From contig JBBCGQ010000001.1 in assembly GCA_037200845.1 (NCBI GenBank), forward strand, positions 2,678,237 to 2,742,236: DNA of 64,000 nt, in the 5' to 3' direction. The notes below the pieces were generated by a model. The model was not told the origin of the DNA and searched no databases. It was given only the letters and a program-made list of their open reading frames with translations. Source of the stretch: Bauldia sp. Its GTDB lineage: Bacteria; Pseudomonadota; Alphaproteobacteria; Rhizobiales; Kaistiaceae. Below are positions 1,914 to 7,871 of the stretch, piece by piece. The position numbers and the translations under genes are program-made. Each line of letters begins with the position of its first letter. Position 1 is the stretch's first letter.

Positions 1914-2724
1914 ATGAACATAGTCCCCACTCGCGGCACGCGGGTGGGCTGGCGCTGCTCCCGTTCCTGCTGATCGTGCTGGTCTACATGGTCGGCTCGG
2001 CCGAGCGGCGCGCGGCGAACCCGAACGACAAGATCCTGCCGCCGATTTCGGAAATGGCGGAGAGGCGTCAAGCGGCTGGCGTTCGAGCCTGACCAGCGCA
2101 CCGGCGACTACATCCTCTGGGCCGACACCGCCTCGAGCCTGCAGCGCCTGCTGATCGGCCTCGGCATCGCCACCGCGATCGGCCTCACCCTCGGCCTCGC
2201 GCTCGGCGTGCTGCCGATTGTCGATGCGACGTTCCGCCCGGTGGTGGCGGCGATCTGCCTGATCCCGCCGATGGCGATGCTGCCGATATTGTTCATCGTC
2301 TTCGGATTGGGCGACCTCTCCAAGGTCGTGCTGATCGTCTTCGGCGTGGCCCCGTTCCTGACCCGTGACATGGCGTTTGCCGTCGAGCGCCTGCCGCGCG
2401 AACAGTTGATCAAGGCGCAGACGCTTGGCGCCTCGACCTGGCAGGTCGCGATCCGCGTCGTGCTGCCGCAGATCATGCCGCGACTGATCGAGGGCGTGCG
2501 CCTGTCGCTCGGCCCGGCGTTCCTGTTTCTGATTTCGGCCGAAGCGATCGCCGCCGACACCGGCCTTGGCTACCGCATCTTCCTCGTCCGCCGCTACCCT
2601 CGCGATGGACGTGATCCTGCCTTACGTCGCGTGGATCACGCTGATTGCCTACCTCATGGACTTCGCGCTCTCGAAGCTGTCGCAGAAAGGCTTCGCCTGG
2701 GCGCACGTCGAGGAGCGGCGATGA
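1914..2724 (+). pseudogene. Guanidine ABC transporter permease (frameshifted as sequenced)
   Basis: This encodes a binding-protein-dependent inner-membrane permease of about 270 residues. Reading through breaks gives a continuous protein with an N-terminal membrane segment, an EAA-type loop (QTLGASTWQVAIRVVLPQ) and several hydrophobic helices, e.g. PMAMLPILFIVFGLG. Three single-base shifts interrupt it: a missing C near 1949, an extra A near 2062 and an extra C near 2598. The family match continues exactly across each, so these look like sequence errors. Its stop overlaps the next start (ATGA at 2721). It pairs with the ATPase at 2721 and the binding protein at 660. The start at 1914 is the first ATG giving the expected N-terminus; it is less certain. 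Confidence 0.8.
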
Positions 2725-3502
2725 GCGCCATCGCCATCCGCGACGTCTGGGTCGAGTACGGCGACCAGGTCGTACTGGAGCGGATCAATCTCGACATCGC
2801 CGAGGGCGCGTTCCTGTCGGTGGTCGGCCCCTCCGGCGCCGGCAAGAGCACGTTCCTGCGGCTGATTCTTGGCCAGGAACGGCCGACGCGCGGCACGATA
2901 AAACTCGACGGCAAGCCGCTGCCCGGCGAGCCGGGGCCGGATCGCGTCGTCTTCCAGCGCTACTCGGGTGTTCCCGCATCTGACGGTGCTGCGCAACGTG
3001 CTCATCGGATTCGAGTTCGAGCGCAGTCCCCTCCTCGCGCGCCTTCGCGGTCCCGACCGTAAGGACGCCATCGCCGAGTGCGACGCGCTGATCGAGGCGG
3101 TCGGCCTCATGCCCCATCGCGACAAGTATCCGCGGCGCTGTCGGGCGGCATGCAGCAGCGCCTCGCCATCGCGCAGGCGCTGGCCAAGCGGCCGAAGGTG
3201 CTGCTGCTCGACGAGCCGTTCGGCGCGCTTGATCCCGGTACGCGCGCGCAAATGCATGCCCTGATCAAGCCGCTGTGGGCCGAGCACAGGATCACCGTCA
3301 TCCTCGTGACCCACGACATCAAGGAAGCCTTCGCGCTCGGCACCCGGCTGGTGGCGCTGAACCATTACCGCGCCGATCCGCAGGCACCCGGCCGCTACGC
3401 GCCACCATCACCTACGACTTCGATCTCAACCCGAACTCGCCGGTGCCCGTGCTGTTCGGGCCGGCGAAGAACAACGACAAGAGCAGAGGAGCGATCCAAT
3501 GA
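2721..3502 (+). pseudogene. Guanidine ABC transporter ATP-binding protein (frameshifted as sequenced)
   Basis: This is the ATPase subunit of the importer, about 260 residues when frames are joined. Walker A is GPSGAGKST, the signature is LSGGMQQR, Walker B is VLLLDEPFGALD, and the switch His is in VTHDIKEA. It resembles taurine/nitrate-type (SsuB/TauB-like) ATPases of urea-carboxylase-region transporters. Three indels break it: an extra G near 2967, a missing G near 3133 (just before the signature) and a missing G near 3398. The stop overlaps the guanidine hydrolase start (ATGA at 3499), indicating translational coupling. The C-terminal tail beyond the ATPase core (SPVPVLFGP) is retained in the third frame. 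Confidence 0.82.
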
Positions 3503-4708
3503 TAGAGCGACAGCGGGAGCATGTATCGCGAAAGGCCGGCGCATTCGCCCCGCCGCAACGCGAGCGCCGCCACCACCCCGATTTCAACGCGCGCGAGACT
3601 CAAGGGTGGAAGGCGATCGAGGCGGAGGACAAGCTGTCCGGCAAGGGCTGGCGCCGCGAGCAGCAATGGGCGCTCGACATGGGGCCTGCCCGGCTCGGAT
3701 TCGCTCACCGACAAGATGATCCCGACGTTCGCGCGCGGCGAGCTCCCGCACTTCGCCGGCATCAACACGTTCCTCAAGGCGCCCTACGTCGAGAACGTCC
3801 GCGACGTCGCCAAGTACGACGCGGCGGTCATGGGCATCCCCTTCGATTCCGGCACCACCTACCGGCCGGGCACGCGCTTCGGGCCGCAGGGCATCCGCCG
3901 CATCTCCGCACTCTACACGCCCTACAACTACGAACTGGGCGTCGACCTCCGCGAGCAGATGACGCTGTGCGACGTCGGCGACGTGTTCACCATTCCCGCG
4001 AACCTCGAGAAGAGCTTCGACCAGATCTCGAAGGGCGTCAGCCACGTCTTCTCGTCGGGCGCCCTGCCCCTGATGCTCGGCGGCGATCATTCGATCGGCT
4101 TTCCGTGCGTACGCGGCATCGCCCAATGCACATCGAAGAAAATTGGCATCATCCATTTCGACCGCCACATCGACATCCAGGAGAAGGATCTCGACGAGCG
4201 CATGCACACGACGCCCTGGTACTGGGCGACGAATCTCCCGAACGTCTCGCCGACCAATCTCGTCCAGCTCGGCATCGGCGGCTGGCAGGTGCCGCGCCCG
4301 GGCGTCGCCGAAGCCGGCAAGCGCCAGACCAACGTGCTGACCATCGCTGACATCGAGCGCATCGGGCTGGAGAAGACGGCCGAGATCGCGCTGGAGCTGG
4401 CATGGAAGGACGCCGACGCGGTCTACATTTCTTTCGACGTCGACTCCCTCGACTGCGGCTTCGTTCCCGGCACCGGCTGGCCCGAGCCCGGCGGCTTCCT
4501 GCCGCGCGAGGCGCTGAAGATTCTGGGGCTCGTCGCCGCCGAGGGCCTCTGCGGCCTCGAGGTGGTCGAGGTCTCGCCGCCCTACGACACCTCCGACATC
4601 ACGGCGCTGGTCGGCGTCCGCGTCGTCGTGGAAGCCTTGGGCTCGCTCGTCGCCCATGGGAAGCTAGGGAGCCACAAGGGCATCATCGACAAGCCGGTGA
4701 GCTACTGA
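3499..4708 (+). pseudogene. gdmH: Ni-dependent guanidine hydrolase, GdmH type (one frameshift as sequenced)
   Basis: This ureohydrolase-family enzyme is predicted to hydrolyse guanidine to urea and ammonium in the cytoplasm. All metal-binding motifs are present: GGDHSIG, FDRHID and SFDVDSLD. The sequence FDRHIDIQ, the DKMIPTFARGELPH segment and an N-terminal extension of about 60 residues fit guanidine hydrolases (Synechocystis Sll1077 type) rather than true agmatinases. The extension (MIERQREHV to REQQWALDMG) is in one frame; the rest, from LPGSDSLTD, is in the next, because of one extra G in the GGGG at 3681-3684. Corrected length is about 402 residues. Neighbours are the riboswitch-controlled importer upstream and a His-rich protein one base downstream. 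Agmatinase is the likely automatic name, but context argues strongly for guanidine. Confidence 0.88.
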
Positions 4709-4709
4709 C

Positions 4710-5174
4710 ATGCACGAGGGACATCACCATCACGACCACGGCAACGGCGGCTTCGGCCACAACGGCACCGCCCCCGCCCGCCAGTGGCAGACGCCGCATC
4801 TCATCCCCGGCGTCACGGTGCAGGAAGCTGCGCCGCGCGAGCCTGACCTCGATCTGGTCGAGACCGCGTTCGTCGACGCCTTCCCGCGCGCGCCCGACCC
4901 GACCAGCTTCCTGCGGCTCGCCGGCGTGCCCTTCGTCGGCGAAGCGGCGGACGGCAAGCGCCTCAGCCTGCTCCGCGTCGAGGTCAGCCAGACCACCGAC
5001 ATCGGCGCGCTGACGCCGCACCTCGGCGGCGCCGGCCACCGCTACGATCCGCTGCCGGCGAAGATGACCTCGCAGCGGCAGAAGCTGGCGCTGGTCTATT
5101 TCGACGGCGCCGCCGTCGTGTCGCTGTCGCTGGCCGAGGCCAAGGCGCTGGTGAACCTGACGCCGCCGCGCTGA
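4710..5174 (+). CDS. His-rich protein linked to guanidine hydrolase, possible nickel accessory protein
   Basis: This 154-residue protein is of no family I recognise. Its first 17 residues are MHEGHHHHDHGNGGFGH, containing seven His. The remainder is soluble, with no signal peptide or membrane segment, and has only moderate hydrophobic strands (KLALVYFDGAAVVSLSL near the C-terminus). It starts one base after the hydrolase stop, so it is almost certainly co-translated. In other bacteria this position is taken by HypA/HypB-like factors (GhaA/GhaB) that load Ni into guanidine hydrolase; none is visible here. A role in Ni binding or delivery is inference from the His cluster and position. A minor alternative is a subunit-like partner of the hydrolase. 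Confidence 0.6.
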   Translation: MHEGHHHHDHGNGGFGHNGTAPARQWQTPHLIPGVTVQEAAPREPDLDLVETAFVDAFPRAPDPTSFLRLAGVPFVGEAADGKRLSLLRVEVSQTTDIGALTPHLGGAGHRYDPLPAKMTSQRQKLALVYFDGAAVVSLSLAEAKALVNLTPPR

Positions 5175-5363: not shown

Positions 5364-6563
5364 ATGGCGAAGATTGTGTGCGTGCTCTACGACGATCCGG
5401 TCACCGGGTATCCGAAGACGTATGCCCGCGACGGTCTGCCGAAGCTGGACAAATATCCCGGCGGCCAGACGCTGCCGACGCCGAAGGCCATCGACTTCAC
5501 GCCGGGCGAATTGCTGGGCTCCGTCTCCGGTGCGCTGGGCCTGCGCAAGTTTCTGGAAGGCGCCGGCCACACGCTGGTCGTCACCTCCGACAAGGACGGC
5601 CCGAACTCCGCCTTCGAGCGCGAGATCGTAGATGCCGACGTCGTCATCTCGCAGCCCTTCTGGCCGGCGTACCTGACGGCGGAGCGCATCGCCAAGGCAC
5701 CCAAGCTGAAGCTCGCCGTCACCGCCGGCATCGGCTCCGATCACGTCGACCTGTCCGCCGCCATGGCGCGCGCCATCACGGTCGCCGAGGTCACCTACTG
5801 CAACTCGATCAGCGTCGCCGAGCACGTCGTGATGATGATCCTCGGGCTCGTGCGCAACTACATCCCATCATACCAGGTGGTGGTGAACGGCGGCTGGAAC
5901 ATCGCCGACTGCGTCGCCCGCTCCTATGACGTCGAAGGCATGAGCGTCGGCACCGTCGCGGCGGGCCGCATCGGCCTCGCCGTGCTCCACCGGCTGAAGC
6001 CGTTCGACATGAAGCTGCACTACACCGACCGCCACCGCCTGCCGGAATCGGTCGAGAAGGAACTCGGCCTCACCTTCCACAAGTCGGCCGCCGACATGGT
6101 GCCGCACTGCGACGTGGTGACCATCAATGCGCCGCTCCATCCGGAGACCGAGAACCTGTTCAACGCCAAGCTGATCAACACGATGAAGCGCGGCGCCTAT
6201 CTCATCAACACGGCGCGCGGCAAGATCGCCAACCGCGACGACGTCGCCGCCGCGCTCCGCTCCGGGCAACTCGCGGGATACGCCGGCGACGTCTGGTTCC
6301 CGCAGCCGGCGCCGCAGGACCATCCGTGGCGGACGATGCCGCACCACGGCATGACGCCGCACATCTCCGGCTCCTCGCTGTCGGCGCAGGCGCGCTATGC
6401 CGCGGGCACGCGCGAGATACTGGAATGCTGGTTCGACAAGCGCCCGATCCGCGAGGAGTATCTGATCGTCGATGGCGGCAAGCTTGCCGGTACCGGCGCG
6501 CATTCCTATTCGTCGGGCAACGCTACCGGCGGCTCGGAGGAAGCGGCGAAGTTCAAGCGGTGA
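5364..6563 (+). CDS. fdh: NAD-dependent formate dehydrogenase
   Basis: This 399-residue cytoplasmic enzyme oxidises formate to CO2 with reduction of NAD. Length and sequence match the metal-free FDH of methylotrophs such as Pseudomonas sp. 101. The dinucleotide fold GTVAAGRIG (near residue 200) is followed by YTDRHR, whose Asp selects NAD over NADP. Active-site segments NTARGK and GMTPHISG (catalytic His) are present, as is the family C-terminus SYSSGNATGGSEEAAKFK. The start at 5364 has GGGAGG just upstream; an open frame extends further up, but through the palindromic repeat. It may give reducing power from C1 compounds; I see no direct link to guanidine breakdown. Confidence 0.95.
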   Translation: MAKIVCVLYDDPVTGYPKTYARDGLPKLDKYPGGQTLPTPKAIDFTPGELLGSVSGALGLRKFLEGAGHTLVVTSDKDGPNSAFEREIVDADVVISQPFWPAYLTAERIAKAPKLKLAVTAGIGSDHVDLSAAMARAITVAEVTYCNSISVAEHVVMMILGLVRNYIPSYQVVVNGGWNIADCVARSYDVEGMSVGTVAAGRIGLAVLHRLKPFDMKLHYTDRHRLPESVEKELGLTFHKSAADMVPHCDVVTINAPLHPETENLFNAKLINTMKRGAYLINTARGKIANRDDVAAALRSGQLAGYAGDVWFPQPAPQDHPWRTMPHHGMTPHISGSSLSAQARYAAGTREILECWFDKRPIREEYLIVDGGKLAGTGAHSYSSGNATGGSEEAAKFKR

Positions 6564-6859: not shown

Positions 6860-6956
6860 CGCAGCCGTCAAAACCCGTGAGGGGTTTGCGCTGGGTCAAT
6901 CCGGCGCTATAGCCGCACGCGCCATAGTGGCCCGCACAAGCTCGGCGAGGCCCATC

Positions 6957-7871
6957 ATGAACGTCCACGTGAACCCGGTCATGCCCGACAACCTCGAAGA
7001 CAAGAAATCCCGCGCCGCGGCGTGGTTCGCGGAGCTTCGCGATAGCATCACGTCAGCCTTCGAGGGGCTGGAAGAATCGCTGCCCGCCAATGGCCCCCTC
7101 GCCGACCGGCCGACCGGCCGTTTCGTACGCACGCCGTGGAAGCGCACCGACCACACCGGCGCCGATGGCGGCGGCGGCGTCATGTCGGTGATGCACGGCC
7201 GCGTCTTCGAGAAGGTCGGTGTGCATATCTCGACAGTGCACGGCGAGTTCGCGCCGGATTTCCGCAAGGACATCCCCGGCGCCGAGGAGGACCCGCGCTT
7301 CTGGGCGGGCGGCATCTCGCTGATCGCGCACATGCAGAACCCGCATGTCCCCGCCGTGCACATGAACACGCGCATGGTGGCGACGTCGCGGAACTGGTTC
7401 GGCGGCGGCGCCGACCTCACGCCTGTGCTGGCGGAGCGCCGCACGCAGACCGACCCCGACACCATCGACTTCCACGCCGCCATGAAGGCGGCCTGCACGC
7501 GCCACAGTGCGGTTGCCGACTACGACCGCTACAAGAAATGGTGCGACGAATACTTCTTCCTGAAGCATCGCAACGAGATGCGCGGCGTCGGCGGCATCTT
7601 TTACGATTGGCTGAACTCGGGCGACTGGGAGGCCGACTTCGCCTTCACCCGCGATGTGGGACTGGCGTTCCTCGGCGTCTATCCGGAACTGGTGCGGCGC
7701 AATTTCGCCAAGCACTGGAGCGAAGCGGAGCGGGAGGAGCAGTTGGTACGCCGCGGGCGCTACGTCGAGTTTAATCTGATCTACGACCGCGGCACGATCT
7801 TCGGGCTGAAGACGGGCGGCAATATCGATTCGATATTGTCGTCGATGCCGCCGGTCGCGAAGTGGCCGTGA
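6957..7871 (+). CDS. hemF: Oxygen-dependent coproporphyrinogen-III oxidase
   Basis: This 304-residue enzyme of haem biosynthesis decarboxylates two propionate chains of coproporphyrinogen III using O2. Family blocks are clear: [17 protein letters not shown] near residues 75-90, [34 protein letters not shown], and the C-terminal [15 protein letters not shown]. Length is normal for the family. The start at 6957 follows GGCGAGG; an in-frame upstream ATG at 6927 has no better site. It is a single-gene unit, bounded downstream by palindromic repeats. It indicates an aerobic metabolism. Confidence 0.95.

Follow-up and report, generated by a model that had tools for sequence, protein, structure and literature searches.

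A histidine-rich protein encoded directly behind alphaproteobacterial guanidine hydrolase genes: a candidate nickel accessory factor

The window analysed here is a 64,000-nucleotide stretch of the genome of a Bauldia species, and all coordinates without a locus label refer to it. It contains a plus-strand operon headed by a guanidine-I riboswitch aptamer (RF00442, 446-556; cmscan score of 72.8 bits against a gathering threshold of 63). The riboswitch is followed, in order, by genes for an ABC substrate-binding protein, presumably for guanidine uptake (660-1727; TIGR03427, 553.6 bits with a cut-off of 333.9), an ABC permease (2073-2712; PF00528), an ABC ATPase (2722 to approximately 3502; PF00005), a guanidine hydrolase of the nickel-dependent type (gdmH, 3500-4708) and a histidine-rich protein (4710-5174), with which the conserved operon ends. 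The frames of the permease, ATPase and gdmH genes (2073-3684) each shift in the assembly, and that of the histidine-rich gene is intact. The permease is recovered in two frames by tblastn with the permease of a related locus (L055), the ATPase domain is split between two separate open reading frames, and gdmH has a frameshift near 3684, with two frames relative to L055. The gene for coproporphyrinogen oxidase farther downstream (HemF, 6927-7871) also ends short, at position 270 of the 295 in its profile, and for this reason assembly indels (long-read errors) are a likelier cause of the breaks than gene decay. An NAD-dependent formate dehydrogenase gene (5364-6563; NF005750, 705.7 bits) was considered as part of the system and rejected, as it is not conserved in relatives; because relatives do not have it directly after the histidine-rich gene, it is probably an unrelated neighbour.

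The hydrolase gene upstream is, by sequence, a GdmH orthologue. Its product matches Synechocystis GdmH (7ESR/7OI1) with a phmmer E-value of 2e-155 and the Nitrospira inopinata guanidinase (9FEK) with 9e-153, and the next PDB match has an E-value of 2e-49; the corresponding bit scores are 520.8 and 512.2 for the characterised GdmH proteins versus 172 for the next group. The motifs GGDHS, HFDRH, SFDVD and PGTGWPEPGG are conserved. The GdmH match and the riboswitch together make guanidine the likely substrate, and expression of the enzyme is predicted to respond to guanidine through the aptamer at 446-556, a riboswitch that was also found in 19 of the 21 related loci tested (9 of 9 and 10 of 12 in two sets). 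The same genome encodes a urease with UreG (L156), which would consume the urea formed from guanidine.

The histidine-rich gene starts at an ATG separated by a single base from the stop codon of the hydrolase (TGA, 4706-4708), as the preliminary description had it, and encodes 154 amino acids with MHEGHHHHDHGNGGFGH at the N-terminus, also as given there. Six of the first ten residues are histidine (binomial P of about 5e-8 at 2.5% histidine). The histidine-rich tract covers residues 1-12 (4710-4745), varies in length among relatives and is modelled with low confidence. A GHN motif, conserved within the tail, follows at residues 16-18 (4755-4763), with the H and N invariant and the G present in at least 90% of a 58-row family alignment, and a core domain occupies residues 46-154 (4845-5171), marked by the motif D-[PK]-x-S-[FY]-L-R-L-A-G. 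Because relatives with 26-69% identity keep both the reading frame and the core, sequence comparison identifies this as a genuine coding gene.

A scan of 84,980 genomes for relatives yielded 65 loci, and all that carry a class name belong to the Alphaproteobacteria (Bauldia, Ensifer/Sinorhizobium, Jiella, Aurantimonas, Fulvimarina, Roseibium, Jannaschia and others). When the open reading frames of these loci were clustered, five genes proved to be conserved; any other real gene occurs in at most 11 loci, and the remaining large clusters stem from alternative frames of those five genes. GdmH is encoded upstream on the same strand in 64 of the 65, and 58 of 66 start codons (the window counted) overlap the end of gdmH or are at most 25 bases from it. 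The single rearranged case is Jiella endophytica (L078 5851-6315; L155), with the gdmH operon about 7 kb away on the opposite strand. The concern that homologues might turn up mostly away from gdmH is thereby answered.

Co-occurrence was followed by searching for both proteins in three genome samples, comprising 61 relatives, 385 members of the class and 398 members of the phylum Pseudomonadota. Every GdmH gene with roughly 70% identity or higher, 25 in total, is adjoined by the histidine-rich gene, and among the 398 genomes of the phylum sample those carrying one gene are exactly those carrying the other (7 and 7). The histidine-rich protein appears without GdmH in these samples only in three remnant-like cases: one copy has an internal stop (G185), one is a weak match of 41 residues (G009), and one belongs to an assembly without gdmH (G425). 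The last of these, in which part of the substrate-binding gene directly borders a copy of the core of the histidine-rich gene (L142 8272-8900), looks like a deletion remnant. Three weaker hydrolases of 52-61% identity were candidates for the converse case, GdmH without the histidine-rich protein (G067, G124, G139). In the sole readable one, that of G139, PGTGTPEPGG replaces PGTGWPEPGG and there is a histidine-containing insertion; for both reasons this enzyme is probably not a guanidine hydrolase. The G139 gene (L140 7028-8425; see also L139) encodes a ureohydrolase with the insertion TTHHDHSHMHD, lies beside glutamine-amidotransferase and glutamate-synthase-like genes, and may act on a different substrate.

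Taken on sequence evidence, the idea of an accessory protein is well supported as an association with GdmH. Coevolution was rejected as an additional argument. Over all loci the distances of the histidine-rich protein correlate with those of GdmH (r of 0.81) better than with those of the transporter proteins (0.53 and 0.46), but this excess is due to one deep split into two subfamilies; there is no excess within either subfamily, where tracking of GdmH is not above tracking of the transporter.

The preliminary description recognised no described family in this protein, and the searches bear it out. The window protein has no sequence match in Pfam, NCBIfam, PHROGs or the PDB, and 58 family members gave no Pfam family. 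The lone NCBIfam match, to DmeF, came from one of the 58 (E of 0.005) and was taken as a chance match between histidine-rich sequences. Plasmid records label relatives "hypothetical protein", and a literature search, which covered sources other than the original GdmH paper and its supplements, found no paper on the histidine-rich protein.

The two subfamilies carry QWQxPH or HLHSH after the GHN motif, and an AlphaFold model was made for one member of each. In both, the tail has low confidence, and is probably disordered, and the core, mostly with pLDDT above 90, is predicted to form two short helices plus a small beta sheet. Because the core combines conservation with a confidently predicted fold, the protein appears to be more than a bare histidine tract. 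Foldseek searches with both models gave no PDB match at E below 0.001, and the best VIA-align Z-scores (5.5 and 2.9) were both to unrelated chains. The fold matches, none of them above background, are weak and unrelated (Tudor/SH3-like and COMM-like), and do not establish the core fold as either known or new. Cysteine is rare in the family, and therefore any metal ligands would be mostly histidine or carboxylate.

Enzymes that contain nickel usually receive it with the help of a HypB or UreG GTPase system. No HypA or HypB gene is found near the window's gdmH, as first described, and none is above the profile cut-off anywhere in its 3.15-Mb genome. HypA is absent at that cut-off, and the one HypB-like match, below the cut-off, is UreG, since the urease adjoins it. 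Among 26 carrier genomes, HypB is above the cut-off in six (G037, G050, G519, G747, G208, G387) and not above it in the other 20, the window's own included, and so the suggestion that the histidine-rich protein stands in place of HypA/HypB holds at the genome level in those 20. The flanks examined contain no HypA or HypB apart from a 30% HypB-like match in L162, probably UreG. Six genomes (G005, G009, G012, G015, G017, G184) encode proteins of about 90 residues that match only positions 1-64/67 of the HypA model; these short proteins occur with or without gdmH in the genome. A nickel link beyond the basis of the preliminary description is added by a HupE/UreJ permease gene (PF04955, each Pfam-confirmed), which directly follows the histidine-rich gene in seven loci (L060, L062, L063, L065, L070, L144, L166).

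GdmH is nickel-dependent and requires nickel chaperones in Synechocystis (PMC11271267, PMC12186494), and the cyanobacterial enzyme uses GhaA/GhaB (PMC11271267; see also PMC10119275). Metformin hydrolase uses HypA/HypB, and a HupE gene lies downstream of its genes (PMC11399263). The genes for these factors, like that for the histidine-rich protein, accompany a nickel-dependent ureohydrolase gene, which for GdmH lies within a guanidine-I riboswitch operon, and their supply of nickel to the ureohydrolase is the role proposed here for the histidine-rich protein. HypB often has a histidine-rich N-terminus, to which the family's tail of 5-28 histidines bears a resemblance only. The histidine-rich protein differs from these pairs in being one protein, with no GTPase domain or zinc ribbon and almost no cysteine. 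Neither the window protein nor any of the 58 members matches the HypA model (PF01155), there is no Pfam or NCBIfam match to HypB (TIGR00073, PF02492), and no P-loop is seen in the alignment.

UreE, SlyD, CooJ and Hpn also have a flexible histidine-rich tail attached or close to a folded domain, and serve nickel enzymes. The histidine-rich family shares this arrangement (see also PMC7055735) but has no sequence match to these proteins, including the UreE and SlyD models of Pfam and NCBIfam; its tail is N-terminal, its core has no convincing fold match, and it is restricted to GdmH operons. The premise that HypA/HypB homologues usually adjoin GdmH stands only in part, since it fails for comammox guanidinases (PMC11410670) and for the copies on Rubrobacter plasmids. 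The comammox guanidinase is described as having an unclear nickel-loading mechanism, with no dedicated loader found (PMC11410670). This enzyme, from N. inopinata, is of the GdmH type without adjoining HypA/B-type loader genes; a dedicated loader is not known there (PMC11410670), whereas the window's operon has an adjoining candidate. GdmH relatives of 56-64% identity on Rubrobacter plasmids (L158, L159) and in Nonomuraea (L160) have neither HypA/HypB nor the histidine-rich protein nearby, and one of these actinobacterial relatives adjoins a urease operon and a formamidase gene.

Based on these data, we propose that the histidine-rich protein belongs to an undescribed family of nickel accessory factors dedicated to alphaproteobacterial GdmH, a reading to which we assign a probability of roughly 0.6. 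In this model, guanidine would bind the riboswitch and so turn on the uptake genes along with those for the hydrolase and the accessory protein. The flexible histidine tail would capture and buffer Ni(II), and the conserved core would dock on newly made GdmH and help it take nickel into its two-metal site. The job performed by HypA/HypB (GhaA/GhaB) in cyanobacteria would thus be done without a GTPase. Nickel binding, docking and metal transfer are all inferred steps.

The division of labour between tail and core bears directly on this model. The tail has a median of 16 histidines across the family and is 29% histidine versus 1.7% in the core, and in the 58-row alignment conservation is much stronger in the core than in the tail. 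The histidine cluster that was first remarked on is retained, with 5-28 tail histidines, in all 66 named members including the window's, but it is reduced to 1-4 histidines in three of 25 members from the whole-genome samples (L050, L051, L052), which keep the core and the operon position. By this comparison the tail cannot be strictly required, and, since the near-tailless members retain the core, the essential function must reside there. Because it is the core and not the tail that is constant, the chief rival is that the protein stabilises or regulates GdmH as one of its subunits, with the core permanently bound and the tail secondary. The fixed gene order would suit such a subunit, and two-protein ureohydrolases do exist; metformin hydrolase requires both of its subunits (PMC11399263). 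However, the core has no detectable relation to ureohydrolases, unlike the second metformin hydrolase subunit, and no such partner is reported in either of the species from which GdmH structures have been deposited, Synechocystis and N. inopinata. A subunit would also leave the histidine-rich tails and the adjoining HupE genes unexplained, and we regard this explanation as unlikely.

The HupE genes would also fit a general cellular nickel store or buffer, of the Hpn type or histidine-tailed, that merely shares the operon and makes no contact with GdmH, as would the storage role suggested for the histidine-rich tails with which some HypB proteins bind many Ni(II) ions (PMC7055735). A store should also be found in genomes without GdmH, but in the sampled genomes the protein occurs only with GdmH, save for the remnant-like cases, and the conserved core would have no explanation; this makes a general store quite improbable. 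A role elsewhere, for instance in transporting guanidine or in protection against it, with the tail incidental, would agree with an operon common to the transporter and riboswitch, but is very improbable, because the histidine tract and HupE neighbours indicate metal rather than guanidine itself and nearly all loci place the gene after gdmH rather than within the group of transporter genes.

Besides the equal tracking of GdmH and transporter within the subfamilies, two further points count against the nickel-factor reading. Nickel may enter GdmH without help or by way of urease factors, since some enzymes outside the clade have neither HypA/B nor the histidine-rich protein nearby (PMC11410670; the Rubrobacter plasmids). 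In addition, the number of tail histidines is independent of genomic HypA/HypB. A link between tail loss and these factors was rejected (Mann-Whitney P of 0.52 on tail histidine number), and the near-tailless members include two in HypAB genomes (G208, G387) and one that is not (G186).

The proposal of a nickel accessory factor can be carried further, to a new single-protein, GTPase-independent family of nickel-insertion factors that is specific for GdmH, recognises the apo-enzyme through a new core fold, arose in the Alphaproteobacteria and replaces HypA/HypB. This fuller version is tentative, and we rate its chances at somewhat less than even. The histidine-rich gene is a one-gene candidate and a near-constant companion of GdmH, which makes the question of nickel loading testable by co-expression. 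In biotechnology the protein could serve as a small activator of enzymes that degrade guanidine and, if the proposal is true, a protein annotated only as hypothetical would gain a function.
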